The position numbers were made by a program, and so were the translations under genes. Shown piece by piece: positions 13,296 through 34,819 of a DNA stretch of 35,756 nucleotides (positions are counted from its first letter, which is position 1; every line of letters begins with the position of its first letter). Below the pieces are notes generated by a model that saw only the letters and a list, made by a program, of their open reading frames with translations, did not search any database and was not told where the DNA came from. Source of the DNA: Ideonella sp. A 288 (GTDB lineage Bacteria; Pseudomonadota; Gammaproteobacteria; Burkholderiales; Burkholderiaceae_C); contig NZ_MWLO01000077.1 in the NCBI RefSeq assembly GCF_002198735.1, positions 1-35,756 on the forward strand, in the 5' to 3' direction.

Positions 13296-14347
13296 CCTTC
13301 ATCACCAAGCCCAGGCTGCACCACCCGACCCTGCACACCAACAAGGTCGGCTACACGCGCCGCGACTACGAGGGCCGCATCTCGACGCTGTGCGCGGGCT
13401 GCGGGCACGACAGCATCTCGGCGGCGATCATCCAGGCCTGCTGGGAACTCGACATCGAGCCGCACCGCGTGGCCAAGCTGTCGGGCATCGGCTGCAGTTC
13501 CAAGACGCCCGATTACTTTCTTGGTGCGTCGCACGGCTTCAACACGGTGCACGGGCGCATGCCTTCGGTGCTGACCGGGGCCAACCTGGCCAACCGCTCG
13601 CTGCTGTACCTGGGCGTGTCGGGCGACGGCGATTCGGCCTCGATCGGGCTCGGACAGTTCGCCAACGCGATGCGCCGCGGCGTGCGCATGGCCTACATCG
13701 TCGAGAACAACGGCGTCTACGGTCTCACCAAGGGGCAGTTCTCGGCCACGGCCGATCTCGGATCGAAGAGCAAGAAGGGCGTGGTCAACAGCGACAGCCC
13801 CGTCGACCTGGTGGGCCTGGCGCTGCAACTGGGTGCCACCTTCGTCGCGCGCAGCTTCTCGGGCGACAAGGAGCAGCTGGTGCCCTTGATCAAGGGCGCC
13901 ATGGCGCATGGCGGCGCGGCGTTCATCGACGTCATCAGCCCCTGCGTCACCTTCAACAACCACAGTGGCAGCACCAAGAGCTACGACTACGTGCGCCACC
14001 ACAACGAGGCGGTCAGCCGCATCGATTTCATGACACCGGGCTCGGAGGTCACCGCCACCTATGCGCCCGGCGAGGTGGTCGAGGTGCCGCAGCACGACGG
14101 CACCATGCTCCGCCTGCGCAAGCTGCACGCCGACTACGACCCCACCGACCGCTACGCCGCGATGAACTACATGCAGAAGCATGGCGAGCGGGGCGAGGTG
14201 GTCACGGGCTTGCTTTACCTGGATTCCTTGGCCACCGACCTGCACACTTCGCTCAACACCTGCGCCGCGCCGCTCAACAGCCTGGGCCTGGCGCAGTTGT
14301 GCCCCGGTTCGTCGGTGCTGGACAAGGTCAACGCGGCCCTGCGCTGA
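13292..14347 (+). CDS. korB: 2-oxoacid:acceptor oxidoreductase beta subunit (TPP and [4Fe-4S]), KorB-type
   Basis: The 351-aa catalytic subunit binds thiamine pyrophosphate and one [4Fe-4S] cluster. The TPP/Mg motif starts at GDGD (residues 111-114) and continues to ENNGVYGLTKGQ (about 138-149). The four cluster cysteines expected for this family are present: CAGC (C34, C37), GIGCS (C68) and ISPC (C218). The segment after the TPP motif (FSATADLGSKSKKG) differs from the usual SPTT form and from the second beta subunit in this window, so the two enzymes probably differ in partner or substrate. It is coupled to korA by a 4-nt overlap, and the CBS gene follows after 45 nt. Confidence 0.88.
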   Translation: MTFITKPRLHHPTLHTNKVGYTRRDYEGRISTLCAGCGHDSISAAIIQACWELDIEPHRVAKLSGIGCSSKTPDYFLGASHGFNTVHGRMPSVLTGANLANRSLLYLGVSGDGDSASIGLGQFANAMRRGVRMAYIVENNGVYGLTKGQFSATADLGSKSKKGVVNSDSPVDLVGLALQLGATFVARSFSGDKEQLVPLIKGAMAHGGAAFIDVISPCVTFNNHSGSTKSYDYVRHHNEAVSRIDFMTPGSEVTATYAPGEVVEVPQHDGTMLRLRKLHADYDPTDRYAAMNYMQKHGERGEVVTGLLYLDSLATDLHTSLNTCAAPLNSLGLAQLCPGSSVLDKVNAALR

Positions 14348-14986: not shown

Positions 14987-15073
14987 TGATCACGCGGCTT
15001 CCGGCCCATGCGTGACTTCCCGCGCCAAGGCGAGCAGCCACGTCGACGGAGAACCGCAACCCAAGAGGTTGCC

Positions 15074-15934
15074 ATGCTCAATTTCGAGATCGTCACGCGC
15101 ACGGATTTCTCCGACGTCACCTACCTGCTCGAGATCCGCCACCCGCTGATGGCCAAGGCCGCCAGGCCGGGGCAGTTCGTGATCGTGATGGAGCATGAGC
15201 ACGGCGAGCGCATCCCGCTGACCATCGCCGATTTCGACCGCGACAAGGGCACCGTCACGCTGGTCATCCAGGCCGTGGGCAAGACCACCCGCGAGATGCA
15301 GCAGAACTGCCAGGTCGGCACGCACCTGCACGCCATGGTGGGGCCGATGGGCGTCCCCAGCCACATCGGTCAGGCCCGAAAGGTGGTCTGCGTGGGCGGC
15401 GGCCTCGGTGTGGCGCCCATCTTTCCGCAGGCGCGCGCCTACAAGGAAAGTGGCGCCTACGTCATTGGCGTGCTGGGCTTCCGCAACAAGTCGCTGATGT
15501 TCTGGGACGACAAGTTCCGCGCCTGCTGCGACGAGCTGATCGTCTGCACCGACGACGGCTCGGCCGGCATCCAGGGCCTGGTGACCGAGGGCATCCGGCA
15601 GGCCATTGCCAGGCATCCCGACATCGACGAGGTGGTGGCCATCGGCCCGCCGATCATGATGAAGGGCTGCGCCGAGGCCACCCGCGCGCACGGCATCAAG
15701 ACCATGGTCAGCCTGAACCCGGTGATGGTCGACGGCACCGGCATGTGCGGCGGCTGCCGCGTGAAGATCGGCGAGCAGATCAAGTTCGCCTGCGTCGACG
15801 GGCCCGATTTCGACGGCCACCAGGTCGACTTCGACGACCTCATGGCGCGCCTCGGTCGCTACAAGCCCACCGAGAAGGCTGCGCTGGAAAGCTGGAAGGA
15901 AAGCTGCCGCATCCGCGGTGGTGCCGGGCACTGA
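15074..15934 (+). CDS. nfnA: NfnA-type ferredoxin:NADP+ reductase subunit (FAD, [2Fe-2S])
   Basis: The 286-aa flavoprotein has an FAD-binding barrel at the N-terminus, an NAD(H)-binding Rossmann domain beginning VGGGLGVAPIFPQA (about residue 116) and a C-terminal [2Fe-2S] loop. The loop reads VDGTGMCGGCR...FACVDGP, giving C225, C228 and C240 with Asp220 nearby. This is the Asp plus three-Cys arrangement described for the Pyrococcus SudB/NfnI small subunit. Together with the next gene it forms NfnAB, the cytoplasmic enzyme that couples NADH and reduced ferredoxin to reduction of two NADP+. The ATG at 15074 with AGAGG upstream is preferred; an in-frame ATG exists at 15008. nfnB follows after 30 nt. 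Confidence 0.85.
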   Translation: MLNFEIVTRTDFSDVTYLLEIRHPLMAKAARPGQFVIVMEHEHGERIPLTIADFDRDKGTVTLVIQAVGKTTREMQQNCQVGTHLHAMVGPMGVPSHIGQARKVVCVGGGLGVAPIFPQARAYKESGAYVIGVLGFRNKSLMFWDDKFRACCDELIVCTDDGSAGIQGLVTEGIRQAIARHPDIDEVVAIGPPIMMKGCAEATRAHGIKTMVSLNPVMVDGTGMCGGCRVKIGEQIKFACVDGPDFDGHQVDFDDLMARLGRYKPTEKAALESWKESCRIRGGAGH

Positions 15935-15964: not shown

Positions 15965-17470
15965 ATGGCCAAGAAGAAGACGATCCGCACCATCCCGCAG
16001 GCCCGCACGGCCATGCCCGAGCAAAGCCCGCAGGCCCGCGTGAAGAACTTCGAGGAGGTGGCCTGCGGCTACCGGCTCGAGGACGCGTTGCTCGAGGCCC
16101 AGCGCTGCCTCGACTGCGCCGACCAGCCTTGCGTGCGCGGCTGCCCGGTGGGCATCGACATCCCCGGCTTCATCAAGAAGATCGAGGGCAAGAACTTCCA
16201 CGGCGCCTACGACGTCATCACCGACACCAACCTGCTGCCCTCGGTGTGCGGCCGCGTCTGCCCGCAGGAGAACCAGTGCGAGGGCGTGTGCACCGTGGGC
16301 GAAACCCTGGAGCCGGTGGCCATCGGCCGGCTCGAGCGCTTCGTCGGCGACATGGCCATTGCCGAGGGCTGGGCCAACGTGCCCTACATCGAGCGCAATC
16401 GCTTCAAGGTGGGCATCGTCGGCTCCGGCCCGGCCGGCATGGCCTGCGCGGCCGACATGGCCAAGGCCGGCTGCGAGGTCACGGTGTACGAGGCCTTCCA
16501 CGAGCCTGGCGGCGTGCTCAAGTACGGCATCCCCGATTTCCGCCTGCCCAACCGCGTGGTCGACGTCGAGATCGAGAAGCTCACCCGGCTGGGCATCCGC
16601 TTCGAGTGCAATACCCTGGTCGGGCGGCTGTTCACCGTCGAGCAGATGCTCGGCGAGATGGGCTTCCATGCGGTGTTCATCGGCACCGGCGCGGGCTACC
16701 CCAGCTTCATGGGCATCCCGGGTGAATCGCTGGGGGGCGTGCTGTCGGCCAACGAGTGGCTGACCCGCTGCAACCTGATGCGCGGGCGCGACTTTCCGAA
16801 CTTCGACACCCCGCTGCAGCCGGGCAAGCGAGTGGCCGTGATCGGTGCCGGCAACACGGCGATGGACGCGATGCGCGTGTCGCTGCGCGTCGGCGCCGAG
16901 AAGGTCTATTGCATCTACCGGCGCAGCGCGGCCGAGGCCCCGGCGCGCGCCGAGGAGATCCACCATGCGCAGCAGGAGGGCGTCGACTTCCAGTGGCTGA
17001 CCAGCCCGGTCGAACTGCTCGGCGACGCCGACCACAACGTGCGCGCGATGCGCTGCGAGCGCATGGCACTCGGCGAACCCGATGCCTCGGGACGGCGGCG
17101 TCCGGTGGCAGTACCGGGCAGCACGTTCGAGTTCGAATGCGACATGGTGGTGTTCGCGATCGGCACCAACGCCAACCCGATCCTGGGACAGACCTCGGGC
17201 CTGAAGCTCGACAAGCGTGGCTACATCGCCACGGATGCCAACCTGGCCACCTCGATCGCCGGCGTCTATGCCGGCGGCGACATCGTCACGGGCGCCGCCA
17301 CGGTGATCGAGGCCATGGGCGCCGGTCGCAAGGCGGCCCGCGGCATGAAGGCCCACCTGGGCCTGCGCGACACCGACTCGGTCTACCTTCACGACAGCGC
17401 CGACGCCGCCGATCGTCTCTTCGGCATCGACCGCCGTGAACGCGGATTCGCCCGCGTTCACCTGGCTTGA
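15965..17470 (+). CDS. nfnB: NfnB / GltA-like NADPH-dependent Fe-S flavoprotein
   Basis: The 501-aa protein has the GltD-type plan. The N-terminal Fe-S domain contains CLDCADQPCVRGCP (about residues 47-60) and SVCGRVCPQENQCEGVC. The FAD motif is GSGPAGM (about 152-158) and the NADPH motif is GAGNTAMD (about 296-303). The adjacent YRRSAAEAPAR shows arginines that usually hold the NADPH phosphate. Alone it could be called a glutamate synthase small subunit, but its pairing with nfnA, in the same order as in Thermotoga and clostridia, supports the large subunit of the electron-bifurcating transhydrogenase. Its ATG has AGGAG (15954-15958) 6 nt upstream. The next gene starts 11 nt after the stop. 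Confidence 0.85.
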   Translation: MAKKKTIRTIPQARTAMPEQSPQARVKNFEEVACGYRLEDALLEAQRCLDCADQPCVRGCPVGIDIPGFIKKIEGKNFHGAYDVITDTNLLPSVCGRVCPQENQCEGVCTVGETLEPVAIGRLERFVGDMAIAEGWANVPYIERNRFKVGIVGSGPAGMACAADMAKAGCEVTVYEAFHEPGGVLKYGIPDFRLPNRVVDVEIEKLTRLGIRFECNTLVGRLFTVEQMLGEMGFHAVFIGTGAGYPSFMGIPGESLGGVLSANEWLTRCNLMRGRDFPNFDTPLQPGKRVAVIGAGNTAMDAMRVSLRVGAEKVYCIYRRSAAEAPARAEEIHHAQQEGVDFQWLTSPVELLGDADHNVRAMRCERMALGEPDASGRRRPVAVPGSTFEFECDMVVFAIGTNANPILGQTSGLKLDKRGYIATDANLATSIAGVYAGGDIVTGAATVIEAMGAGRKAARGMKAHLGLRDTDSVYLHDSADAADRLFGIDRRERGFARVHLA

Positions 17471-17481
17471 GAGAACCCACC

Positions 17482-19383
17482 ATGAACAGCACGCTCACCC
17501 TCGATCCGCCGGTGGCCCAGGCCACGCGCGCGGCGCAGTCGATCGCCGAACACATCGTCGAGGTCATCAGCGATTCGGGCGAAGGCGCCCAGCGCTGTGG
17601 CCAGTCGCTCGCTGCCATCGCCGCCCGCATGGGCAACGGCATCTGGACGACCGAGATCATCCCGGCCGAGATCCAGCCGCCGGCACGCAGCGTGGCCGGC
17701 GCCAGCGGCATCCGCATCCGCATCGGTTCGCAGCGCGTCACCAACGGCGGCGACCAGACCGACCTGGTGGTGGCCTTCAACGAGCAGGTCTTGATCGGCC
17801 GCGTGCAGGCCAGGGAGCTCAAGCCTGGGGCCACGATCCTGCTGGAGAGCATGTGGCAGCACCACCGCGACCCGAGCGTGGTGGCCTCTTACCTGAAGAC
17901 GGTCGAGGCCCTGCGCAGCGACGGCTACAAGGTGATCGAGGTGCCGCTCGAGGACCGGTGCAAGGAACTGGTGAGCGATCCGCGCAAGGGCAAGAACATG
18001 TTCGTGCTCGGCCTGCTGTGCAACCTGTACGGCCTGGACGCCAGCCTGGCACGCGAACAGATCGCACGCATCTTCGGCAAGAAGGACGACAAGGTCATCC
18101 AGAGCAATGTCGCGCTGTACGAAGCCGGCGCGGCCTGGGGTGAGTCGAACCTCGACTTCAAGTACCGCATCCCGGCGCAGCGCTCGAGCCAGGCGCAGAT
18201 CGTCATCAACGGCAACACCGCCATTGCCCTGGGCGTCATGGCCTCGGGCATGGACATCTGCGCCATGTACCCGATCACGCCGGCCACCTCGGCCTCGCAC
18301 TACCTGAGCGAGGTGTTCGAGAAGGTCGGGGGCCTGGTGCACCAGGCCGAGGACGAGATTGCCGCCTGCGCCTTTGCCATCGGCGCGTCCTATGCCGGCA
18401 AGTGCGCGGTGACCATCACCTCCGGGCCGGGCTATTCGCTCAAGCAGGAGGCCATCGGCCTGGCGGTGATGGCCGAGATCCCGCTGGTGGTGGTCAACGT
18501 GCAGCGCGGCGGGCCCAGCACCGGCCAGCCCACCAAGGTCGAGCAGGGCGACCTGCCGGCAGCCGTGTTCGGCAGCCATGGCGATGCACCCAAGGTGGTG
18601 ATGGCGCCGTGCAGCATCGAGGACTGCTTCTACTCGGTGATCACCGCACGCAAGATCGCCGAGACCTTCGGCATGGTGGTGGTGGTGCTGTCGGATGCCA
18701 GCCTGTCGACGGCGCAGCAACCCTTCCCGCGACCGCAGTTCAGCGAGGATTGGCTGGCGCCGCCGGTCGACCAGACCCCCGTACCCCCGGGCGCCAAGCC
18801 CTACGACTGGGATCCGGTCACCGGGCTGTCGCGTCGCTTCCAGCCGGGCCAGCCGGGCGGCATGCACACGCTCACCGGCCTGGCGCACGACCGCAACAGC
18901 AAGGTCGCCTACGACCCCAGCATCAACGAGGAAGGCCTGCGCGCACGCAGCCTGAAGCTGGCCGCGCTGCAGAAGACGCTGAAGGCGCCGCCGGTCGTCG
19001 GTGGCAGCGATGGCGACATGCTGCTGGTGGGCTGGGGCAGCACGATGGGCGCGATCGAAGAAGCCGTGAGCCGGCTCCGCGCCGAAGGGCTGGCCGTGTC
19101 GTCGATGCACCTGCGTTTCATCCAGCCGATGCCGTCGGGCATCCGCGAGATCTTCAAGCGCTTCAAGCATGTGATGACGATCGAGGGCAACTGGTCCGAC
19201 CGCATCGAGGACGAGTTGATCGACGAGGACAACCGCCGCTACTCGGCGCTGGCCATGATGCTGCGGTCGCGCTTCCTGGTCGACGTCGATTGCTGGAGCG
19301 AAGCGCGCGGCCAGCCCATCAAGCCCGGTGACATCTGCCGCGTCGTGCGGCGTGCGTTGAAACAAGAGGGGCCATCATCATGA
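17482..19383 (+). CDS. 2-oxoacid:acceptor oxidoreductase alpha subunit (second type)
   Basis: This 633-aa gamma-alpha fusion belongs to a subgroup clearly different from korA. The gamma domain opens with SDSGEGAQRCGQ and TTEIIPAEIQPPARS instead of the NGSGSASAN/SNIQGMPTW form. The alpha domain has YPITPATSASHYLS at Y263 and the VQRGGPSTGQPTK signature shared by the family (about residues 338-350). A C-terminal domain (about 510-620) completes the subunit. It should form an alpha2-beta2 enzyme with the next gene, to which it is coupled by an ATGA overlap. The substrate (pyruvate, 2-oxoglutarate, branched-chain or other 2-oxoacid) cannot be decided here. The position directly after nfnAB points to ferredoxin as electron acceptor. 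Confidence 0.85.
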   Translation: MNSTLTLDPPVAQATRAAQSIAEHIVEVISDSGEGAQRCGQSLAAIAARMGNGIWTTEIIPAEIQPPARSVAGASGIRIRIGSQRVTNGGDQTDLVVAFNEQVLIGRVQARELKPGATILLESMWQHHRDPSVVASYLKTVEALRSDGYKVIEVPLEDRCKELVSDPRKGKNMFVLGLLCNLYGLDASLAREQIARIFGKKDDKVIQSNVALYEAGAAWGESNLDFKYRIPAQRSSQAQIVINGNTAIALGVMASGMDICAMYPITPATSASHYLSEVFEKVGGLVHQAEDEIAACAFAIGASYAGKCAVTITSGPGYSLKQEAIGLAVMAEIPLVVVNVQRGGPSTGQPTKVEQGDLPAAVFGSHGDAPKVVMAPCSIEDCFYSVITARKIAETFGMVVVVLSDASLSTAQQPFPRPQFSEDWLAPPVDQTPVPPGAKPYDWDPVTGLSRRFQPGQPGGMHTLTGLAHDRNSKVAYDPSINEEGLRARSLKLAALQKTLKAPPVVGGSDGDMLLVGWGSTMGAIEEAVSRLRAEGLAVSSMHLRFIQPMPSGIREIFKRFKHVMTIEGNWSDRIEDELIDEDNRRYSALAMMLRSRFLVDVDCWSEARGQPIKPGDICRVVRRALKQEGPSS

Positions 19384-20369
19384 GCCGATCACTGAGCCAG
19401 TGCGTGATCAAGCTGCACGAGGAGCACCATGCCCTCGAGGACTACCAGGGCGGCGTGCCGCGCTGGTGCAGCGGTTGCGGCGACAACGCGATCCTGGCCG
19501 CCATGCAGCGCCTGTGCAGCGAAGAAGACCTGGCGCCCGAGAACACGGTGTTCGTGTCCGGCATCGGCTGCTCCAGCCGGCTGCCGCACTACATGAAGAC
19601 CTACGGCTTCCACGGCATCCACGGCCGCGCCTTTCCGGTGGCCGAGGGCATCAAGATGGCCCGGCCGGACCTGAACGTGTTCGTCAGCACCGGCGACGGC
19701 GACTGCTGCAGCATCGGCGCCGCGCACTGGATCCACGCCATCCGCTACAACATGAACATCACGGTCGTGCTGCACGACAACCATGTGTACGGGTTGACGA
19801 AGAAGCAGGCCTCGCCGACCTCGCCGCGCGGCTTGAAGAGCAACACCACGCCCTACGGCGCCACGCTGGAGCCGATGAACCCGCTGACGGTGACGCTGGG
19901 CGTGCAGGGCGCCTCGTTCGTGGCGCAGGGCGTCGACTGGGTGCCCGAGGTGCTGTACGACATCATGCACGCCGCGTTCAAGCACCGGGGTTTCTCGTTC
20001 GTGCGCATCCTGCAGCGCTGCCCGGAGTTCATGCCCAAAGCCTTCGACCCCTGGCTGCACGATCCGCAGCGCACCATGCTGCTCACGCACCCGGACGGCC
20101 TGCAGCTCAGCCCCAGCCTGTCCAGCGCCTACCGCAACCAGCGGCCACACGACCCGAGCAACATCGATCGGGCCCGCGAGATCGCCTCGATGGACGACCC
20201 GATCCCGGTGGGCATCCTGTACCGCAACCCCGATGCGCCGTGCTACGAGGACCTGCGGCATGCCGGCCAGATGCGCTCGCCGGAGTACATCCGCGCCGGA
20301 CTGAACCGCGAGTTCGACAAGTACACGGTCTGGCCCGAAGGCGAAGAGCCCGCGCAGCAGGCCGGCTGA
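19380..20369 (+). CDS. 2-oxoacid:ferredoxin oxidoreductase beta subunit (second type)
   Basis: The 329-aa TPP-binding subunit carries four cluster cysteines in the expected places: CSGC (C30, C33), GIGCS (C64) and LQRC (C214). The TPP motif runs from GDGDCCSIG (residue 105 onward) to DNHVYGLTKKQASPTSPRG (about 133-151), the classical form with SPTS. This differs from korB, which has ENN and SATAD at these places. It overlaps the alpha gene by 4 nt. The gene for the PFOR-like/ferredoxin protein begins 44 nt downstream, so the electron acceptor may be encoded next. Confidence 0.88.
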   Translation: MSRSLSQCVIKLHEEHHALEDYQGGVPRWCSGCGDNAILAAMQRLCSEEDLAPENTVFVSGIGCSSRLPHYMKTYGFHGIHGRAFPVAEGIKMARPDLNVFVSTGDGDCCSIGAAHWIHAIRYNMNITVVLHDNHVYGLTKKQASPTSPRGLKSNTTPYGATLEPMNPLTVTLGVQGASFVAQGVDWVPEVLYDIMHAAFKHRGFSFVRILQRCPEFMPKAFDPWLHDPQRTMLLTHPDGLQLSPSLSSAYRNQRPHDPSNIDRAREIASMDDPIPVGILYRNPDAPCYEDLRHAGQMRSPEYIRAGLNREFDKYTVWPEGEEPAQQAG

Positions 20370-20413: not shown

Positions 20414-22603
20414 ATGGACATGCATGCCAAGCCCCAGGACCAGCTGATCTTCCACCTCACCGGCAAATGCCAGGGCGACGGCGTCGTGTCGACGGCCGGC
20501 CTCGATCTGCGCCCCGCGCTGCTGGCGCCGTACCGAGACCTCAACGCGCTGCGGCACGACTTCCCGGCGGTGCTGGTGCAAGGCGCCGGCGGGCGGGAGT
20601 TCGTGCGCTCCTTGTCCAGCCTGGTCGACACCATGCTCGAGAGCGTGGCGCCACGGGGCATCGAGGGCGAGCGCCTGCGCCGTCACGCGCTGCAGCTCGA
20701 GCGCGAGATCCGGTCCGACGTGGCCGGGGGCGCCACCGGCAGCCTGTCGGAACTGTGGGACGCGGCTGCGGCGCGCCTGGGCGCGCGCGAGGGCGAGACC
20801 CTGGAAAAGGTGCTGGCCCACGCCGGCGGCGCCCTCAGCGTCGATGGCGACGTCGTGGGCTGCACGCACCAGATGCCGGCGCGGCTGATCACCCATGCCT
20901 GGCATGCCGCGCGCCGTGCCAAGGCCAAGCTGTTTCGAGCCGACCTGAGCCGCCTGGTGCTGAAGCTGTCCGACATCCTGCGTGCCGCGCACAGCCACTC
21001 GCAGGCGGGGCGGCAGCCGGACAGCCTGAAGGCCGCCGTCGGTGGGTCGCACCGCGATGCGTTCGACTTCGACCTGTTGTCGCGCATCGTCGGCAAGGGG
21101 GCGCCGCGCGACGAGTTGCCTGCGGCGCGGCGCGAGCGTCTGGTGCGCACGCTGGGCGTGCTGGAGTCGCAGCGCTTCTTCGGGCCGCCAGAGCGCGAGG
21201 CCGAAGAAGGCGCCGACTGCCTCGACTTCGAGTTCGACAACTGCGCCGCGGCAGCCCAGGCCTTTCGTCAGCGCCTGGGTGACCTGGCCGAGCTGGTCAA
21301 GGCGATGTCGATCGCCGAGCTGGAGGCCAAGGGCCACTACGTCGAGGCCGAGCACGACCTGGTCTTCGACGCCTTCGGCGAGCATTCGCTGACGGCTGCC
21401 GACCTGGCGCGCTTTCCGGATTACCTGGTGTGCATCCCGCCCGATCGCAACGACGCCCCGGAGAACGCCAACCTGATGGAGATGCTGTCGTCCGGCCTGC
21501 CCGTGAAGGTGCTGGTGCAGACCTCGGATCTGCTCGAAGAGGCATCGATCGGCACCGGGCACTTCGCCTTTGGCGTGCGCAGCGCGCGGCTGGCCACTGC
21601 GGCCATGGGCCTGGGCGGCATGTTCGTGCTGCAGTCGCCCAGCGCCAACCTGGTGGCGCTTCGCGCGCAGATCGGCCGCGGGCTGGCCTGTCAGGGGCCG
21701 GCGCTGTTCAGCGTCTTTTCCGGCTCGGCGCAGCCTGCCAGTCAGCTGCCGCCTTATCTCACCGCCGCTGCCGCGATGACCTCACGCGCCTTTCCGGCGT
21801 TCAGCTACGACGCCGCAGCCGGTGCCAATTGGGCCACGCGCTTCTCGCTGGAGAACAACCCGCAGCCCGATGGCGATTGGGCGGTCGAGACCCTGGCCTA
21901 TGCCGACACGGCCCTGCAGCAGCTTGCCGAGCGCTGCGCCTTCACCTTCGCGGACTTCGTGCTGTGCGACAGCCGCTGCGCAGCGCACTTTGCGCGGGTG
22001 CCCCGCGAGCACTGGAACGCGGCGATGCTGCCGGTGGCCGATTGGCTGGCGTTGGACGAGCGTGAGGCGGCGCAACGCGTGCCGTACCTGCTGGCGGTGG
22101 ATGCCGACGATGCCCTGCACCGGGTGATCGTCGATGCCCGGCTGATGCAGGCCACGCGCCGCAGCCTGCTGCTGTGGCATCGCCTGCAGGAGCACGGCGG
22201 CGTGCACGACTCGCACGCCGAACGGCGGCAGGTGCAGGAGAGTGCCTCGCAGAAGGCGCCGGCACCGGCCACGCCGGCTGCCGTGGCGCCCGCCGCACCG
22301 AAGCCCGCGACGGCCGAGGCTGCAGATGCCGCGCCCGACGTGCCGGCGCACTCGCGTGACGAGGCCTGGATCGACACGGCCCGTTGCCCGAGCTGCAACG
22401 AATGCCAGTTGATCAACGACCGCATGTTCGCCTACGACGAGCGCAAGCAGGCCTACATCAAGGACCTCACGGCGGGCACCTACCGTCAGCTGGTCGAGGC
22501 TGCGGAAAGCTGCCAGGTCGCGATCATCCACCCCGGCGAGCCGCGCGATACCAATGAACCCGGCCTGGCAGAGCTGCTGCTGCGAGCCGAGCCCTTCCGG
22601 TGA
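20414..22603 (+). CDS. Degenerate PFOR TPP-domain protein fused to a single-cluster ferredoxin
   Basis: No standard name applies to this 729-aa protein. An N-terminal region (1-330) is unrecognised and rich in Arg/Glu helices. Residues about 340-490 align by eye with the TPP-binding domain of one-chain pyruvate:ferredoxin oxidoreductase: LSSGLPVKVLVQTSDLLEE sits where PFOR has the SGE-VNVFVMDTEVYSN block. It is followed by counterparts of the AMG, FVLQS, GPALFSVFSG and YD elements. The TPP/Mg GDG is PDR here and the DTEVYSNTGGQ loop is lost, so it should not bind TPP. After an Ala/Pro linker (about 615-650) comes a ferredoxin domain with C658, C661, C664 and C700 for one [4Fe-4S] cluster. It may be electron carrier and scaffold for the preceding oxidoreductase. 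Confidence 0.7.
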   Translation: MDMHAKPQDQLIFHLTGKCQGDGVVSTAGLDLRPALLAPYRDLNALRHDFPAVLVQGAGGREFVRSLSSLVDTMLESVAPRGIEGERLRRHALQLEREIRSDVAGGATGSLSELWDAAAARLGAREGETLEKVLAHAGGALSVDGDVVGCTHQMPARLITHAWHAARRAKAKLFRADLSRLVLKLSDILRAAHSHSQAGRQPDSLKAAVGGSHRDAFDFDLLSRIVGKGAPRDELPAARRERLVRTLGVLESQRFFGPPEREAEEGADCLDFEFDNCAAAAQAFRQRLGDLAELVKAMSIAELEAKGHYVEAEHDLVFDAFGEHSLTAADLARFPDYLVCIPPDRNDAPENANLMEMLSSGLPVKVLVQTSDLLEEASIGTGHFAFGVRSARLATAAMGLGGMFVLQSPSANLVALRAQIGRGLACQGPALFSVFSGSAQPASQLPPYLTAAAAMTSRAFPAFSYDAAAGANWATRFSLENNPQPDGDWAVETLAYADTALQQLAERCAFTFADFVLCDSRCAAHFARVPREHWNAAMLPVADWLALDEREAAQRVPYLLAVDADDALHRVIVDARLMQATRRSLLLWHRLQEHGGVHDSHAERRQVQESASQKAPAPATPAAVAPAAPKPATAEAADAAPDVPAHSRDEAWIDTARCPSCNECQLINDRMFAYDERKQAYIKDLTAGTYRQLVEAAESCQVAIIHPGEPRDTNEPGLAELLLRAEPFR

Positions 22604-23646: not shown

Positions 23647-26124
23647 ATGGCGGCAGGCGGGCTGGACACCGGGTGGCGCATCGCGCTGTGCTGCCTGGGC
23701 TGGCTGGCGGGCATGGCGCTGCAATTGCAGCAGCCGGTGCTGTGGCCAGCCGCGGTCGACGCGGGCCTGTGCGGCGGTGCCCTGGTGATGGCCGCGCTGG
23801 GCTGGCGCTGGCGCGGCGGCCCCGCCGTGCTGCTGCTGGTGGCGGCCTGCGCGATGCTGGGGGCGGCCAGCACCAGCCAGCGCGCCCAGGCCCGACTGGC
23901 CCAGGGCCTGGCGCCCGACCTGGAAGGCGCCGACCTGGTGCTCACCGGCGTGGTGGCCAGCCTGCCGCAGGCGGGGCCGGCGGGCACCCGCTTCACGTTC
24001 GAGGTCGAATCGGCGCAGCGCCACGGCCGGGCGCTGGCGGTGCCGGCCGAGGTGCCGGCGCGCGTGGCGCTGGGCTGGTACCGCAACGACCGCGACGAGG
24101 CCTTCCTGGCCGAACCCCAGGCCGACCTGCGCGCCGGCCAGCGCTGGCGCCTGCCGGTGCGGCTGAAGCGCCCGCACGGCGCGATGAACCCGGGGGGCTT
24201 CGACGCCGAACTGTGGTGGTGGGAGCAGGGCCTGCGCGCCACCGGCTACGTGCGCGTGGTGGCGGGCTGGGTGCCGGCCACGCTGCTGGCCGATGGCGTG
24301 GCCCACCCGGTGGAGCGGGCGCGCCAATCGATTCGCGACGCCATCCTGCGCGAGGTGCGCGACCCGCGCCTGGCCGGCGTGCTGGCCGCGCTGGTGGTGG
24401 GCGACCAGGCGGCCATCGAGCGCGACGACTGGGAGCTGTTCCGCCAGACCGGCATCGCCCACCTGATGAGCATCAGCGGGGTGCACGTGACGATGTTCGC
24501 CTGGATCGCCGGCCTGGCCTTCGGCTGGGCCTGGCGGCGCAGCACGCGGCTGATGCTGCGCGTGCCGGCGCCCACGGCCGGGCGCTGGGGCGGGCTGGCG
24601 GTGGCGGCCGGCTACGCACTGATCGCCGGCTGGGGCGTGCCGGCCGAGCGCACGGTGCTGATGCTGGCCTGTGGCGTGCTGCTGCGCTCGCTCGGGGCGC
24701 GCTGGCCCTGGCTGCTGGTGCTGATGGTGGCCGCGGTGGCGGTGACCCTGCTCGACCCCTGGTCGTTGCTGCAGCCGGGCTTCTGGCTGTCGTTTGCCGC
24801 GGTGGGCCTGCTGCTGGCGTCCGAATCGCCCGACCGGCGCGAGGCCGGGCCGGCCGACGAGCCCGCCTGGCGGCGCGCGCTGCGCGGCCACCTGCGTGCG
24901 CAGGGGGTGGCCACGCTGGGGCTGGCGCCGTTGTCGCTGGTGTGCTTCCAGCAGGTGTCCGTGGTGGGCTTCGTGGCCAACCTCGTCGCCATCCCCTGTG
25001 TCACGCTGCTGGTCACGCCGCTGGCGCTGTTGGGCGTGGCGCTGGCGCCGCTGTGGCAGGTGGCGGCCTGGGCGGTGCAGGCGCTGGGGTGGCTGCTGGG
25101 CGCGATGGCCGACTGGCCGTTCGCGGTGTGGACCGTGGCCGCCGCGCCCGCCTGGGCGGTGTGGGCCGGCCTGGCCGGTGCGCTGCTGGCCGTGCTGCCG
25201 CTGCCGTGGCGCCTGCGCGCGGCCGCGGTGCCGATGATGCTGCCGCTGCTGTGGCCGCCGGTGCAGCGGCCGGCCGACGGTGCCTTCGACCTGGTGGTGG
25301 CCGACGTGGGGCAGGGCACCGCCGTGCTGGTGCGCACGCGCGCCCACCTGCTGCTGTACGACACCGGGCCGCAGTACTCGCGCGAGAGCGACGCCGGCCA
25401 GCGCGTGCTGCTGCCGCTGCTGCGTGCCCGCGGCGAGACGCGCATCGACCGTCTGGTGCTAAGCCACCGCGACATCGACCATGTCGGCGGCGCCGCCACG
25501 CTGTTCGCGTCGCTGCCAGTGGCCGACACCACCAGTTCGCTCGAGGCCGGCCATCCGCTCTTGCAGCACGGCCCGCACCGGCCCTGCGAGGCCGGGCAGT
25601 CATGGACCTGGGACGGCGTGCGCTTCGACATGCTGCATCCCACCCCGGCGGACATGGCCAGCGCGCGCAAGCCCAACGCGGTGTCCTGCGTGCTGCGGGT
25701 GGTGGACGCCCAGGGTCGCAGCCTGCTGGTCACCGGCGACATCGAGGCGCCCCAGGAAGCGGCGCTGGTGCAACGCCACGGTGCATCGCTGGCCAGCACC
25801 TGGCTGCTGGTGCCGCACCATGGCAGCCGCACCTCGTCCACCGACGCGTTCCTCGACGCGGTGCAACCGACGCTGGCGCTGGTTCAGGCGGGCTACCGCA
25901 GCCGCTTCGGCCATCCGGCGCCTGACGTGATGGAACGATACCGAGAGCGTGGCATTGCCATCGAACGAACGGACCTTTGTGGTGCGTGGCTGTGGCACGA
26001 TGGTGCAGCCTCGTGCACCCGCGAGGTGCGTCGCCGATATTGGCACTGGAACTCGCACAACTCAGGTGTGAATGCTGGTGCGGATGTTGCTAACCCCTCG
26101 CAGGCAGGAGAACTCAAACCATGA
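23647..26124 (+). CDS. comEC: ComEC/Rec2-family DNA internalisation protein
   Basis: ComEC is the inner-membrane channel for uptake of single-stranded DNA in natural transformation. The 825 residues contain an N-terminal hydrophobic and OB-like region (1-230), the competence domain with many membrane segments (about 230-540, including LMSISGVHVTMFAW near 275) and a C-terminal metallo-beta-lactamase domain. The latter shows VVADVGQGTAVLV (about 555), LSHRDIDHVGG (H607, D609, D611, H612) and VPHHGSRTSS (H724). All three regions are intact, so the gene should be functional. The ATG at 23647 has no clear Shine-Dalgarno. The stop overlaps the start of the next gene as ATGA. Transformation ability would also need pilus genes outside this window. 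Confidence 0.9.
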   Translation: MAAGGLDTGWRIALCCLGWLAGMALQLQQPVLWPAAVDAGLCGGALVMAALGWRWRGGPAVLLLVAACAMLGAASTSQRAQARLAQGLAPDLEGADLVLTGVVASLPQAGPAGTRFTFEVESAQRHGRALAVPAEVPARVALGWYRNDRDEAFLAEPQADLRAGQRWRLPVRLKRPHGAMNPGGFDAELWWWEQGLRATGYVRVVAGWVPATLLADGVAHPVERARQSIRDAILREVRDPRLAGVLAALVVGDQAAIERDDWELFRQTGIAHLMSISGVHVTMFAWIAGLAFGWAWRRSTRLMLRVPAPTAGRWGGLAVAAGYALIAGWGVPAERTVLMLACGVLLRSLGARWPWLLVLMVAAVAVTLLDPWSLLQPGFWLSFAAVGLLLASESPDRREAGPADEPAWRRALRGHLRAQGVATLGLAPLSLVCFQQVSVVGFVANLVAIPCVTLLVTPLALLGVALAPLWQVAAWAVQALGWLLGAMADWPFAVWTVAAAPAWAVWAGLAGALLAVLPLPWRLRAAAVPMMLPLLWPPVQRPADGAFDLVVADVGQGTAVLVRTRAHLLLYDTGPQYSRESDAGQRVLLPLLRARGETRIDRLVLSHRDIDHVGGAATLFASLPVADTTSSLEAGHPLLQHGPHRPCEAGQSWTWDGVRFDMLHPTPADMASARKPNAVSCVLRVVDAQGRSLLVTGDIEAPQEAALVQRHGASLASTWLLVPHHGSRTSSTDAFLDAVQPTLALVQAGYRSRFGHPAPDVMERYRERGIAIERTDLCGAWLWHDGAASCTREVRRRYWHWNSHNSGVNAGADVANPSQAGELKP

Positions 26125-27569
26125 AACCCAGCTTCGACGAGATGCAGGCAACCGCCAGCACGGTGCGCGAGCATTACCGCGGCTATGCCCAGTGGCTGGC
26201 CAGACAACCAGGCGAGCAGATGGCCGCCCGGCGTGAAGAGGCGGAGATGATCTTCCGCCGCGTCGGCATCACCTTCGCGGTGTACGGCGCCAAGGACGAG
26301 GACGGCGCCGGCACCGAGCGGCTCATCCCCTTCGACCTGATCCCGCGCATCATCCCGGCCGACGAGTGGACCAGCATGCAGCGCGGCCTGGCGCAGCGCG
26401 TGACGGCCCTCAACCGTTTCATCCACGACGTCTACCACGACCAGGAGATCCTCAAGGCGGGCATCGTGCCCACCGAGCAGGTGCTCAACAACAGCCAATA
26501 CCGGCCCGAGATGAAGGGCGTCGACGTGCCGGGCAATGTGTACTCGCACATCTCGGGCGTCGACATCGTGCGGGCGGCGCAGCCCGATGGCAGCGGCACC
26601 TACTACGTGCTGGAAGACAACCTGCGCGTGCCCAGCGGTGTGAGCTACATGCTCGAAGACCGCAAAATGATGATGCGGCTGTTCCCCGAGCTGTTCGCGC
26701 AGCACCGGGTCGCTCCGGTCGCGCACTATCCCGACCTGCTGCTCGAAACCCTGCGCGACGTGGCCCCCGCCTCGGCCGACGAGCCGCACGTGGTGGTGCT
26801 GACCCCGGGCATGTACAACAGCGCCTACTTCGAGCACGCCTTCCTGGCCCAACAGATGGGCGTGGAACTGGTCGAAGGGCAAGACCTGTTCGTCAAGGAC
26901 CACTTCGTCTACATGCGCACCACGCGCGGCCCGCGCCGCGTCGACGTGATCTACCGCCGGGTGGACGACGACTTCCTCGACCCGCAGGTGTTCCGCCCCG
27001 ACTCCACGCTGGGCTGCGCCGGCCTGCTGGACGTGTACCGCCGCGGCAACATCACGCTGGCCAATGCCATCGGCACCGGGGTGGCCGACGACAAGTCGAT
27101 CTACCCCTACGTGCCGAAGATGGTGGAGTTCTACCTCGGCGAAAAGCCGATCCTGCAGAACGTGCCCACCTACCTGTGCCGCAACTCCGATGACCTGAAG
27201 TACGTGCTCGACCACCTGGCCGAGCTGGTCGTCAAGGAAGTGCACGGCGCCGGCGGCTACGGCATGCTGGTGGGCCCGGCGGCCACCAAGGCCGAAGTCG
27301 AAGAGTTCCGTGCGCAACTGCTGGCCAACCCCAGCAACTACATCGCCCAGCCCACGCTGGCACTGTCCACCTGCCCCACCTTCGTCGAGAGCGGCATCGC
27401 GCCGCGCCACATCGACCTGCGGCCCTTCGTGCTGTCGGGCAAGGCCTCGGGCAAGAGCGTGCAGATGGTGCCCGGGGGCCTCACGCGCGTGGCCCTGAAG
27501 GAAGGCTCGTTGGTCGTCAATTCGTCCCAGGGTGGTGGCACCAAGGACACCTGGGTCCTGGAGGGCTGA
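26121..27569 (+). CDS. Circularly permuted type 2 ATP-grasp protein (COG2308)
   Basis: This 482-aa member of the circularly permuted ATP-grasp family is predicted to form amide bonds between a carboxylate and an amine using ATP. The conserved parts are visible: YVLEDNLRVPSGVSYMLEDR (about 160-180), VVLTPGMYNSAYFEH (about 229), VDVIYRRVDDDFLDP (about 275-290) and VVKEVHGAGGYGM with Lys372 and the glycine-rich loop. DLRPFV near 435 and the final GGGTKDTWVLEG (Lys475) complete them. It overlaps comEC by 4 nt and is followed after 3 nt by its usual partner, the alpha-E protein. GGAGA at 26107-26111 serves as ribosome site. The substrate is not known for the family. Confidence 0.9.
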   Translation: MKPSFDEMQATASTVREHYRGYAQWLARQPGEQMAARREEAEMIFRRVGITFAVYGAKDEDGAGTERLIPFDLIPRIIPADEWTSMQRGLAQRVTALNRFIHDVYHDQEILKAGIVPTEQVLNNSQYRPEMKGVDVPGNVYSHISGVDIVRAAQPDGSGTYYVLEDNLRVPSGVSYMLEDRKMMMRLFPELFAQHRVAPVAHYPDLLLETLRDVAPASADEPHVVVLTPGMYNSAYFEHAFLAQQMGVELVEGQDLFVKDHFVYMRTTRGPRRVDVIYRRVDDDFLDPQVFRPDSTLGCAGLLDVYRRGNITLANAIGTGVADDKSIYPYVPKMVEFYLGEKPILQNVPTYLCRNSDDLKYVLDHLAELVVKEVHGAGGYGMLVGPAATKAEVEEFRAQLLANPSNYIAQPTLALSTCPTFVESGIAPRHIDLRPFVLSGKASGKSVQMVPGGLTRVALKEGSLVVNSSQGGGTKDTWVLEG

Positions 27570-27572
27570 ACG

Positions 27573-28529
27573 ATGCTGTCACGAACTGCTGACCACCTGT
27601 TCTGGATGTCGCGCTACATGGAGCGCGCGGAGAACACCGCCCGCATGTTGGACGTCAACTACCAGACCTCGCTGCTGCCGCAGTCGGCCGACCGGGCCGA
27701 GCAGGGCTGGGCCGGCGTGCTGGGCATCTCGGAGCTGACGCAGGCCTTCCACAAGCAGCACAGGTCGGTCGATGCCAAGAGCGTCATGCATTTCATGGTG
27801 CGCGACGCGACCAACCCCTCGTCCATCGTGTCGTGCCTGGGCGCGGCGCGCGAGAACGCCCGCGCGGTGCGCGGCACGCTCACCACCGAGCTGTGGGAAA
27901 CCACCAACGCCACCTGGCTCGAGTTCAACCGCATGCTGCGCGATGGCGCCTTCGAGCGCGACCCCGCCAGCGTGTTCGAGTGGGTGAAGTTCCGCTCGCA
28001 CCTGTCGCGCGGCGTGGCCGTGGGCACCATGCTGCAAGATGAAGCGTTGCACTTCATCCGCATCGGCACCTTCCTGGAGCGTGCCGACAACACCGCGCGT
28101 TTGCTCGACGTCAAGTTTCACGCACTGGCCGGCGACTACTTCGGCACCTGGGGCGAGAATGACGCCCCCGAAGTCGACTTCTACCACTGGTCTGCCATCC
28201 TGCGGTCGGTGTCCGGCTTCGAGATCTACCGCAAGGTCTACCGCAACGTCATCCGCCCCGACAAGGTGGCCGAGTTGCTGATCCTGCGCCCCGACATGCC
28301 GCGCTCGCTGGCGGCCTGCATGAATGAAACCGTCACCAACCTGGCCCTCGTGGCCAACGAGCACAGCGGCGAGACCGAGCGCCGGGCCGGCCGGCTGCGC
28401 AGCGACCTGCAGTTCGGCCGCATCGACGAGATCCTCTCCACCGGCCTGCATGCCTTCCTGACTCAGTTCCTCGACCGCGTCAACGACATCGGTGCCGGCA
28501 TCAGCCGCGACTTCCTCGTACCCGCCTGA
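27573..28529 (+). CDS. Alpha-E domain protein (COG2307/DUF403)
   Basis: The 318-aa all-helical protein has the family hallmark at the N-terminus, LFWMSRYMERAENTARMLD (residues about 10-28), and its echo RIGTFLERADNTARLLDVK (about 166-184). The repeated Arg/Glu pattern suggests an internal helical repeat. Alpha-E proteins nearly always accompany circularly permuted ATP-grasp ligases and transglutaminases, and are thought to act with them in a peptide-forming or modifying pathway. The start is 3 nt after the ATP-grasp stop, so the two are coupled. No catalytic residues are established. Confidence 0.9.
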   Translation: MLSRTADHLFWMSRYMERAENTARMLDVNYQTSLLPQSADRAEQGWAGVLGISELTQAFHKQHRSVDAKSVMHFMVRDATNPSSIVSCLGAARENARAVRGTLTTELWETTNATWLEFNRMLRDGAFERDPASVFEWVKFRSHLSRGVAVGTMLQDEALHFIRIGTFLERADNTARLLDVKFHALAGDYFGTWGENDAPEVDFYHWSAILRSVSGFEIYRKVYRNVIRPDKVAELLILRPDMPRSLAACMNETVTNLALVANEHSGETERRAGRLRSDLQFGRIDEILSTGLHAFLTQFLDRVNDIGAGISRDFLVPA

Positions 28530-28542
28530 TCCCATGAACCTG

Positions 28543-28567
28543 CCTGCCGCGTGCGCGCGGCGGCAGG
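28543..28567 (+). other. Hairpin between the alpha-E and transglutaminase genes
   Basis: CCTGCCGC and GCGGCAGG form an 8-bp stem around a 9-nt GC loop in the 105-nt gap. No T-run follows, so it may be an mRNA processing or stabilising element rather than a terminator. Confidence 0.4.
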
Positions 28568-28634
28568 GTCCACCCGATCGCTCACGGACCCACGGCCCGC
28601 AAGGGTCAGATCCGCCGCAAGAGAGACCCCTACC

Positions 28635-31600
28635 GTGTCCATCCACGTCGCACTGAACCACGTCACGCACTACCGCTACGACCGGCGCGTCGGGCTGTCG
28701 CCGCAGATCGTCCGCCTGCGGCCGGCGCCGCACTGCCGCACCAACATCCTGTCCTACTCGCTGACGATCGAGCCCACGGGCCACTTCATCAACTGGCAGC
28801 AGGACCCGTTCTCCAACTACCTGGCGCGCCTGGTCTTCCCCGAGCCCACCACCGAGTTCAAGGTCACCGTCGATCTGGTGGCCGAGATGTCGGTGCACAA
28901 CCCGTTCGACTTCTTCCTCGAGCCCGAGGCCGAGAACTTTCCCTTCGCCTACGACGAGGTGCAGGCCAAGGAACTGGCACCCTACCTTGTCAAGGAAGCG
29001 GCCACGCCGGCGCTCGCCGCGTTCGTCGCCAGCATCGACCTGAAGGAACAGCGCACCATCGACTTCCTGGTCGGCATCAACCAGCGCCTGCAGAAGGACA
29101 TCCGCTACCTCATCCGCATGGAGCCGGGCGTGCAGACGCCCGAAGAAACGCTCACCAACGCCAGCGGCTCTTGCCGCGACACCGGCTGGCTGATGGTGCA
29201 GGCGCTGCGCCATCTGGGCCTGGCCGCGCGCTTCGTCTCGGGCTACCTCATCCAGCTGAAGCCTGATGTGAAGGCGCTCGACGGCCCCAGCGGCACCGAG
29301 ATCGACTTCACCGACCTGCACGCCTGGTGCGAGGTGTTCCTGCCCGGCGCCGGCTGGATCGGCTTCGACCCCACGTCGGGCCTGCTGGCCGGCGAGGGCC
29401 ACATCCCGCTGGCCTGCACGCCGCAGCCTTCGGCCGCGGCGCCGGTGAGCGGTGCGGTCGACGAGTGCGAGGTCACCTTCGGCCACCACATGGCCGTCAC
29501 CCGCATCTACGAATCGCCGCGCGTCACCTTCCCCTACACCGACGAGCAGTGGGGCGACATGCTGTCCCTCGGCGACCAGGTGGACGAGGCCCTGGTGGCC
29601 GGCGACGTTCGCCTGACCATGGGCGGCGAGCCCACCTTCGTGTCGGTGGACGACCGCGACGGCGCCGAGTGGAACACCGACGCCCTGGGCCCCACCAAGC
29701 GCATGCGCGCGCAAGACCTGGTGCACCGCCTGCGCGAGCACTACGGCCAGGGCGGCTTCCTGCACTTCGGCCAGGGCAAGTGGTACCCGGGCGAGCAGCT
29801 GCCGCGCTGGGCGCTCAGCATCTGCTGGCGCGCCGACGGCCAGCCCTGCTGGCACGACCCGTCGCTGTTCGCCGACGAGCGCGACCACCACGCTTACACC
29901 GCCGACGACGCCAAGACCTTCATCAGCACCCTGGCCACCAAGCTCGGTGTGACGAATGAGTACGTCCAGACCGGCTACGAGGACACCTGGTACTACCTGT
30001 GGCGCGAGCGCCGCCTGCCGATCAACGTCGACCCCTTCGACACCAAGCTCGAGGACGAGATGGAGCGCGCGCGCCTGCGCCGCGTCTTCGACCAGGGGCT
30101 CGACGCCACCATCGGCTACGCGCTGCCCATCAAGCCGTCGGACGGCCCGGCGCTGGCTGGCCCGCGCTGGGTGACCGGCCCGTGGTTCTTCCGCGACGAG
30201 CGCATGTACCTGATCCCCGGCGATTCGCCGATGGGCTACCGCCTGCCGCTCGATTCGCTGCCCTGGGTGAAGGGCACCGACTACCCGTACCACGTCGACG
30301 CCGATCCGTTCGCGCCGCGCGGCGCGCTGCCGGGTGCGGCCAGCATCCGCACGCAGTACGCGTCGCACGTGCCCGGCGGCGGTTTTGCCGAGGGCGGGGT
30401 GGTGGGCTTCCAGGCGGGCCTGCCGGGCGATGCCGCGCTCACCGGCGCCGATGGCTCGGCCGGCAGCGCCGCTGCCGCGGCCGCCGGCCCGGCCACGCAG
30501 ACCACGCCACTGTCGCGCGAAGCCTTGTCGCGCGCGCCGCACCGCTTCGAGTCGGCCTACTGGATCACGCGCAGCGCGCTGGTGGTGGAGGCCCGAGACC
30601 CGCGCCGCGCCAACGGCCCCGAGGCCGAGACCAGCGCCAAGCCGGCCAGCAGCGTGCTCTACGTCTTCATGCCGCCGCTGCAGCACCTCGAGGACTATCT
30701 CGAACTGCTCGCCGCCATCGAGGCCACGGCCGCCAGCCTGCAGATGAAGATCGTGCTCGAAGGCTATCCGCCCCCGCGCGACCCGCGCCTGAAGCTGCTG
30801 CAGGTCACGCCCGACCCCGGCGTCATCGAGGTCAACATCCACCCGGCGCACGACTGGAAAGAGCTGGTCGAGCACACCACCTTCCTGTACGACGCGGCCT
30901 GGCAGTCGCGCCTGTCCACCGAGAAGTTCATGCTCGACGGCCGCCACACCGGCACCGGCGGCGGCAACCACTTCGTGCTGGGCGGCGCCACGCCGGCCGA
31001 CAGCCCCTTCCTGCGCCGCCCCGACGTGCTGGGCAGCCTGCTGGCCTACTGGCACAACCACCCGGCGCTCAGCTACCTGTTCACCGGCCTGTTCATCGGC
31101 CCCACCAGCCAGGCGCCGCGTGTGGACGAGGCCCGCAACGACCAGCTCTACGAGCTGGAAATCGCCCTCGGCGAGATCGAGCGCAACAAGGCGGTGTACG
31201 GCCAGAACATGCCGCCCTGGCTGATCGACCGCACGCTGCGCAACGTGCTGGTCGACGTGACCGGCAACACCCACCGCAGCGAGTTCTGCGTCGACAAGCT
31301 GTACTCGCCCGATTCCAGCACCGGTCGCCTGGGCCTGCTCGAGCTGCGCTCTTTCGAGATGCCGCCGCACGCCCGCATGAGCGTGGTGCAGCAGTTGCTG
31401 CTGCGTGCGCTGGTGGCCCGCTTCTGGAACGAGCCCTACCGTGCCGAGCTGGTGCGCTGGGGCACCGCGTTGCACGACCGCTTCCTGCTGCCCACCTTCG
31501 TGTGGATGGACATGGAAGACGTCATCGAGGACATGGGCCTGGCCGGCTTCGGCTTCCGCCCCGAATGGTTCGCACCGCACTTCGAGTTCCGCTTCCCCAA

Positions 31601-32132: not shown

Positions 32133-32196
32133 CGCCGTGAAATCCGGCGGGAAGGGCCCGATGCCTGGCGGGGCAGGCTCAGGGCATGATGCGGGC

Positions 32197-34779: not shown

Positions 34780-34819
34780 TAGCCGCCACGCGTCGAATGT
34801 GCGTCAGCACGGGGGCCCC

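Follow-up and report, generated by a model that had tools for sequence, protein, structure and literature searches.

In Ideonella sp. A 288, the gene directly downstream of korB encodes a protein, here referred to as SUB3, that is homologous along its whole length to the C-terminal half (domains V and VI and the terminal ferredoxin) of PFOR-like enzymes of ~1635–1700 aa. Apart from the ferredoxin, the cofactor sites of this half have been lost, and it is probable that the operon encodes a 2-oxoacid oxidoreductase in which a hollowed-out PFOR half acts as the ferredoxin-bearing subunit. The window, i.e., the whole stretch of DNA analysed (35,756 nucleotides, contig NZ_MWLO01000077.1), carries the following features of this operon:

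15068–15934, + strand: NfnA-like FAD/NAD-binding protein with a DHODB-type Fe-S domain (NF004862 above cut-off, PF10418)
15965–17470, + strand: NfnB/GltD-like FAD/NAD(P)H and Fe-S oxidoreductase (TIGR01316 above cut-off, Fer4_20)
17482–19383, + strand: KorA, fused gamma and alpha subunit (OAFO_sf TIGR03710 above cut-off)
19380–20369, + strand: KorB beta subunit, intact GDG...N TPP motif and four cluster cysteines (TPP_enzyme_C, PFO_beta_C)
20414–22603, + strand: SUB3, 729 aa, degenerate PFOR C-terminal half plus ferredoxin (reading frame, BLASTP, profile comparison)
20444–20830, + strand: SUB3 residues 11–139, remnant of PFOR domain V without its two [4Fe-4S] cysteine motifs (hhalign)
20831–22213, + strand: SUB3 residues 140–600, degenerate PFOR domain VI and C-terminal extension (BLASTP, hhalign, Foldseek, cysteine table)
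21434–21565, + strand: SUB3 residues 341–384, region in which GDG and DTxVYSNTGGQ have been lost (alignment)
22364–22531, + strand: SUB3 residues 651–706, single [4Fe-4S] ferredoxin with C658, C661, C664 and C700 (Fer4_13)

The genes are tightly packed on one strand in the order NfnA-like, NfnB/GltD-like, KorA, KorB and SUB3, with an overlap of 4 bases between korA and korB and a gap of 44 bases between korB and SUB3, whose reading frame was checked and is as the first-pass annotation had described it. KorB scores 254.5 against TIGR02177, just below the NCBIfam cut-off of 261.9. The genes of KorAB and of an NAD(P)H reductase are thus found together in one operon, the combination by which a 2-oxoglutarate:NAD(P)+ oxidoreductase complex is recognised.

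A second KorA/KorB pair (11316–13295 and 13292–14347; 27% and 34% identity to the SUB3-linked pair) is also present in the window, with a GltD-like Fe-S oxidoreductase gene (9619–11457) immediately 5' of it, the whole region spanning 9619–14347. Further along, at 26121–35722, genes for a circularly permuted ATP-grasp protein, an Alpha-E protein, a transglutaminase-like protein and a DUF2126 amidoligase apparently form an uncharacterised peptide-modifying cluster.

What is the origin of SUB3? The first-pass annotation had recognised in residues ~340–490 the order of elements of the PFOR TPP domain. This order is real (SGLPVKVLV, AMGLGGMFVLQ, GPALF and FSYDAAAG in residues ~335–490), and the link to PFOR runs through long PFOR-like proteins (~1635–1700 aa, one of 1771 aa). 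BLASTP of SUB3 against one of them, L083, gave 192 bits with 27% over 687 aligned columns, and the SUB3 profile aligned with the C-terminal halves of 12 long PFORs over 724 columns, collinearly from SUB3 residue 11, at an hhalign E-value of 4.1e-92 (a single-pair value, as are all hhalign E-values for SUB3 given here). Of 13 long PFORs, the truncated L047 was not taken into this alignment, and further long frames were left unaligned. The homology, previously limited to residues 340–490, stands there and extends more widely: the part covering residues 11–139, as a profile of 12 window-type and three Rnf-type members, by itself matched the long-PFOR profile (probability 97.7, E 2.3e-12) and aligned with domain V, where the first cluster motif loses three of its four cysteines to a 13-column gap. 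For comparison, this N-terminal profile gave E 0.057 against KorA and a weak E 0.024 against a second dead PFOR paralogue (see below), and the whole SUB3 profile gave E 0.45 against an ORF that proved unrelated, a comparison not designed as a negative control. PFOR-type proteins of ~550 aa were also reached by the family profile; the two that were read, L132 and L133 (E 1.1e-21 and 7.1e-21), have GDG and NTGGQ intact, and L132 scores with TPP_enzyme_C and TIGR02176. L083, the sole long PFOR scanned whole, matches TIGR02176 (below cut-off), TPP_enzyme_C and Fer4_13. The nearest intact relatives found are the Rnf-linked long PFORs and not the neighbouring KorB.

The motif counts that follow are based on an alignment of the window protein with members from 34 of 47 loci, 13 (similar, truncated or of the long type) having been omitted before counting. 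The long PFORs keep GDGAxxDIG, DTQVYSNTGGQ, the proximal CxxC and two further cysteines in 13 of 13 cases, and both domain V cluster motifs are kept in all 12 that reach domain V. Among the 35 SUB3 members, neither an intact GDG nor the loop Asn occurs even once; the latter bears out the replacement of the DTEVYSNTGGQ loop noted earlier. The GDG motif had been read as PDR, and its loss stands, with the aligned residues being P342-P343-D344, one residue off. The place of the GDG Asp is occupied by P or A in 28/35 members, and the Asp alone remains in two (L035 and L042), both without the loop Asn. At the eight domain V cysteine places, no member has a cysteine (35/35), the two CxxCxxCxxxC motifs being absent, and three of the four proximal-cluster cysteines are gone throughout, C150 alone being kept. 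The TPP site is therefore lost, as had been claimed, and the degeneracy affects the whole C-terminal half and not the TPP domain alone. GDG..N strings were noticed in 3 of 40 sequences, none of them at the aligned TPP-motif place.

C150 (window 20861–20863) is invariant in 35/35 members and is unable to bind the proximal cluster alone; in five Rnf-type relatives of SUB3, its place is taken by Tyr. These five were aligned separately, without L080, whose frame stops short of the ferredoxin in the assembly, and without L081, which is of the window type. They are without GDG and without all four proximal cysteines, and the loop Asn is present in 5/5, as if decay had followed a different or less complete course.

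The fold predicted by AlphaFold2 from the SUB3 alignment (pLDDT 84.6, pTM 0.76) was compared with the PDB using Foldseek. Ranks 1–24 were PFOR, oxalate oxidoreductase or OFOR chains, with modest E-values (best 4.5e-3, none below 1e-3) and TM-scores by query length of up to 0.23 among the 50 best rows. Because of these modest E-values and low TM-scores, the fold result, for which the first-pass annotation had called, supports the profile result and does not stand alone.

The ferredoxin end is the only part of SUB3 visible to Pfam, and NCBIfam gives no match. Residues 653–706 score 25.2 bits against Fer4_13 (cut-off 24.5), and a PDB sequence search matched this end to ferredoxin I (1dax, E 4.6e-4). 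All four cysteines assigned to it by the first-pass annotation (C658, C661, C664 and C700) are present and are kept in 35/35 aligned members, which likewise all match Fer4_13, with E-values up to 1. No direct match to the PFOR-like part was returned by the Pfam, NCBIfam and PDB sequence searches, and TIGR02179 (OFOR delta subunit PorD/KorD) has no match to SUB3 at E ≤ 1. Taken together, profile homology, the loss of motifs in 35/35 members, the fold comparison and the intact ferredoxin cysteines uphold the proposal of a PFOR-type TPP domain that is without its TPP site and joined to a ferredoxin. One relative, L081, has three tandem C-terminal ferredoxins on a single scaffold (10152–13070), which fits a carrier role for SUB3.

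How constant is the link to KorAB? A scan of genome contigs revealed 47 loci with a SUB3 relative, mostly in Burkholderiales, with some in alpha- and gammaproteobacteria and two in Gemmatimonadetes. korB lies directly 5' of SUB3 in 40/40 loci with enough upstream DNA, and korA (36/36), nfnB-like (31/34) and nfnA-like (30/32) genes were found upstream in the testable loci (the counts exclude L047 and L048 as well as the partial loci L031 and L045). Alpha- and gammaproteobacteria share the operon order with Burkholderiales. In a set of 274 genomes of the class, KorA reaches at least 53% identity in eight (one of them with 62% over an incomplete match), and it is in exactly these eight that the SUB3 match starts in the N-terminal part; two others with a KorA of 39% have no SUB3 match. 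In total, 22 of the 274 match SUB3, 14 of them solely from about residue 275 or later: 12 via frames of 555–1724 aa, of which the ones fetched whole are long PFORs, and two via 543-aa frames. Neither SUB3 nor a close KorA was found in the four same-genus genomes drawn. The TPP motif and the four cluster cysteines of KorB are intact in 48/48 cases, so the chemistry is probably performed by KorAB, and the earlier picture of a dead paralogue beside a working neighbour agrees with both this conservation and the KorAB linkage. An apparent truncation of SUB3 in G290 was traced to a stretch of N that follows residue ~55 and gives no sign of a short form. A plasmid search returned two distant matches (29% and 33%), neither of them coinciding with an annotated feature.

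The Rnf-linked relatives provide a second case of a degenerate PFOR. In L079, L080 and L078, the operon contains KorA, KorB, a SUB3 relative, an RnfB-like protein, a second PFOR paralogue (1490–1573 aa) and RnfC; SucC and SucD precede RnfC in L079 and L080 and are absent there in L078. SucC, SucD, RnfB and RnfC in L079 and SucC and SucD in L080 were confirmed by Pfam/NCBIfam, the other gene names in L078 and L080 being read from sequence. L090 (SucC, SucD and RnfC confirmed by Pfam) and L091 repeat this layout, and L092 ends before that point. The positions of the second paralogue and of the intact long enzymes are as follows:

Second degenerate PFOR paralogue: L078 9512–13984; L079 7794–12515; L080 4806–9443
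Second degenerate PFOR paralogue: L090 11214–15074; L091 12072–15848; L092 85–4884
Long single-chain PFOR-like enzymes with C-terminal ferredoxin: L083 3718–8811; L084 3997–8940; L085 5943–10850; L086 3679–8601
Long single-chain PFOR-like enzymes with C-terminal ferredoxin: L087 3962–8968; L088 3799–8754; L089 3703–8661

In 6/6 cases, the NTGGQ loop, the proximal cysteines and GDG are gone from the second paralogue (the GDG Asp stays in five); it has no ferredoxin domain and keeps both domain V cluster motifs in 6/6. The SUB3 relative keeps the ferredoxin, so the two shells hold complementary clusters. A midpoint-rooted tree of the region they share, with 14 of the 35 aligned SUB3 members, has a branch with support of 100/99 that separates these 14 and the five Rnf-type relatives from the intact PFORs and the second paralogue, whose place among the intact PFORs is less well supported. 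The simplest reading of this split would be that the TPP site was lost twice, separately. The long PFOR of L083 is located between the genes of an RnfB-like Fe-S protein and RnfC, that of L048 likewise, and RnfC-type genes lie 3' of the long PFORs in L083 and L084 (all Pfam); the long enzymes are possibly direct donors to Rnf. We consider the chances about even that PFORs were twice dismantled, complementarily, into wiring for KorAB, in which case the two dead shells of the Rnf-linked operons would form a relay to the membrane pump and the operon in the window would represent a reduced version, with SUB3 alone and Nfn replacing Rnf.

The Gemmatimonadetes locus L048 (27–11038) contains, in a row, KorA, KorB, an unrelated 370-aa ORF, an RnfB-like protein, an intact long PFOR and RnfC, possibly the state before decay. 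The 370-aa ORF was considered as a reduced SUB3, which profile comparison did not support (E 0.45).

These data raise the question of what such a protein does. The reading we favour, with a probability of about 0.68, is that a KorAB-type 2-oxoglutarate oxidoreductase has in SUB3 a third, non-catalytic subunit, with the hollowed PFOR half as scaffold and the tethered ferredoxin as electron acceptor. Its ancestor would be a long Rnf-linked PFOR, of which SUB3 represents the C-terminal half with domains V and VI and the terminal ferredoxin. With the TPP/Mg site, the proximal cluster and both domain V clusters gone, the fold would remain as a docking scaffold, and electrons would move from the KorB cluster to the tethered [4Fe-4S] ferredoxin and on to the NfnAB-like NAD(P)H reductase, whose genes lie upstream, or to Rnf in the case of other operons. 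The order of the genes and the domains present lead us to infer that SUB3 carries the electron acceptor of its neighbour, as the first-pass annotation had suggested; the formation of a complex, its substrate and the direction and partners of electron flow are likewise inferred. The succinyl-CoA ligase genes in the operons of relatives (L079, L080 and L090, Pfam) point to 2-oxoglutarate as the presumed substrate; such genes were seen in Rnf-type loci alone, and none was detected among the 24 window frames scanned. Counted against the subunit reading are the modest Foldseek E-values, the GDG Asp in 2/35 members, the fast N-terminal part and a normal 2-oxoglutarate dehydrogenase E1 encoded in the same genome (C40:100062–102854; TIGR00239, 1204 bits), so that the Kor operon might provide an additional route.

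Could SUB3 instead be mainly a docking or assembly factor that places KorAB beside Nfn or Rnf, with its ferredoxin as a recognition or regulatory element and a soluble ferredoxin as the electron path? Most of the chain is a cofactor-free scaffold, and intact long PFORs occur between rnfB-like and rnfC-like genes (L083 and L048, Pfam), which agrees with this; we nevertheless regard it as rather unlikely, given the invariance of the four ferredoxin cysteines in 35/35 members, the triplication of the ferredoxin in one relative, and the pattern of selection. Whole-gene dN/dS was 0.16–0.62 in the 15 lowest-dS pairs (of 396 pairs with dS < 1.2), and the ferredoxin had the lowest dN/dS of four regions in 11 of these 15; the values are rough, since the synonymous sites have a GC bias and, in wider pairs, are probably saturated. 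Purifying selection on SUB3 is indicated by these estimates, with the N-terminal part evolving fast and single regions reaching 0.76. This fast evolution and the patchy distribution (0/4 same-genus genomes) are what would be expected of a decaying gene heading for loss, an explanation that we find scarcely credible, as whole-gene dN/dS is below 1 in 15/15 pairs, Burkholderiales, alpha- and gammaproteobacteria have the operon order in common, and the frames are open through to the ferredoxin in most loci (L045 and L063 are exceptions, and L031 is cut by the contig at its other end). Alternatively, the altered pocket might bind another ligand, e.g., CoA or a nucleotide, and the domain might be a sensor or an allosteric site. 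The replaced loop is alike among near relatives (QTSDLLEE-S-G) and C150 is invariant in 35/35; yet the loop is mostly absent in L037 and L040, and the aligned loop positions differ from member to member, as those of a conserved binding site would not, which makes this proposal quite improbable.

The subunit reading can be set against known systems. Single-chain pyruvate:ferredoxin oxidoreductase (Moorella 6CIN, also 7PLM), the source of the top Foldseek matches, has domains V and VI collinear with SUB3 via the long PFORs; unlike it, SUB3 is without both domain V clusters, the proximal cluster, the TPP site and the N-terminal half, which by the domain numbering we take to be domains I–IV, and bears its ferredoxin at the C-terminus. 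The Rnf-linked long PFORs (L083–L089, L094, L096 and L048) share the C-terminal extension and the ferredoxin with SUB3 and, in contrast, keep the TPP motifs and cluster cysteines, each being one complete enzyme. The PorD/OorD delta subunits of four-subunit 2-oxoacid:ferredoxin oxidoreductases are non-catalytic and carry an Fe-S relay for the catalytic core. By analogy, SUB3 would be a non-catalytic Fe-S relay subunit, although it differs from them in having no TIGR02179 match, a single cluster and a large pseudoenzyme scaffold. To our knowledge, the 2-oxoglutarate:NADP+ oxidoreductase of Azoarcus evansii has no SUB3-like subunit. One subunit of that enzyme groups among NfnB/GltD homologues, according to a passage of PMC10134865. 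A proposed precedent for a redox subunit that is without cofactor sites and keeps a structural role is NqrA, a derivative of RnfC (as presented in an excerpt of PMC4014512), which belongs to a different family and has no attached ferredoxin. In an excerpt of a Riftia-symbiont study, a "PFOR-like" gene falls together with a korAB pair (PMC11636981), and an excerpt on Thiomargarita nelsonii gives three consecutive gene tags for korAB (PMC4853749), the third of which might be a SUB3 relative. No described pseudoenzyme PFOR subunit was found in the titles and abstract beginnings of open-licence literature among the matches listed, which is weak evidence of absence.

SUB3 thus offers a clear example of how a redox enzyme with several cofactors has become a scaffold, for which both intact relatives and a second, complementary shell are available for comparison. 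A function is proposed for a large protein known to Pfam solely by its ferredoxin end and to NCBIfam not at all, and for proteobacteria, 2-oxoglutarate oxidoreductases of a new composition are predicted. Deducing carbon-fixation pathways from genomes calls for caution, since a PFOR-like gene close to rnf may be catalytically dead, as the "PFOR-like" gene in the excerpt of PMC11636981 may illustrate.
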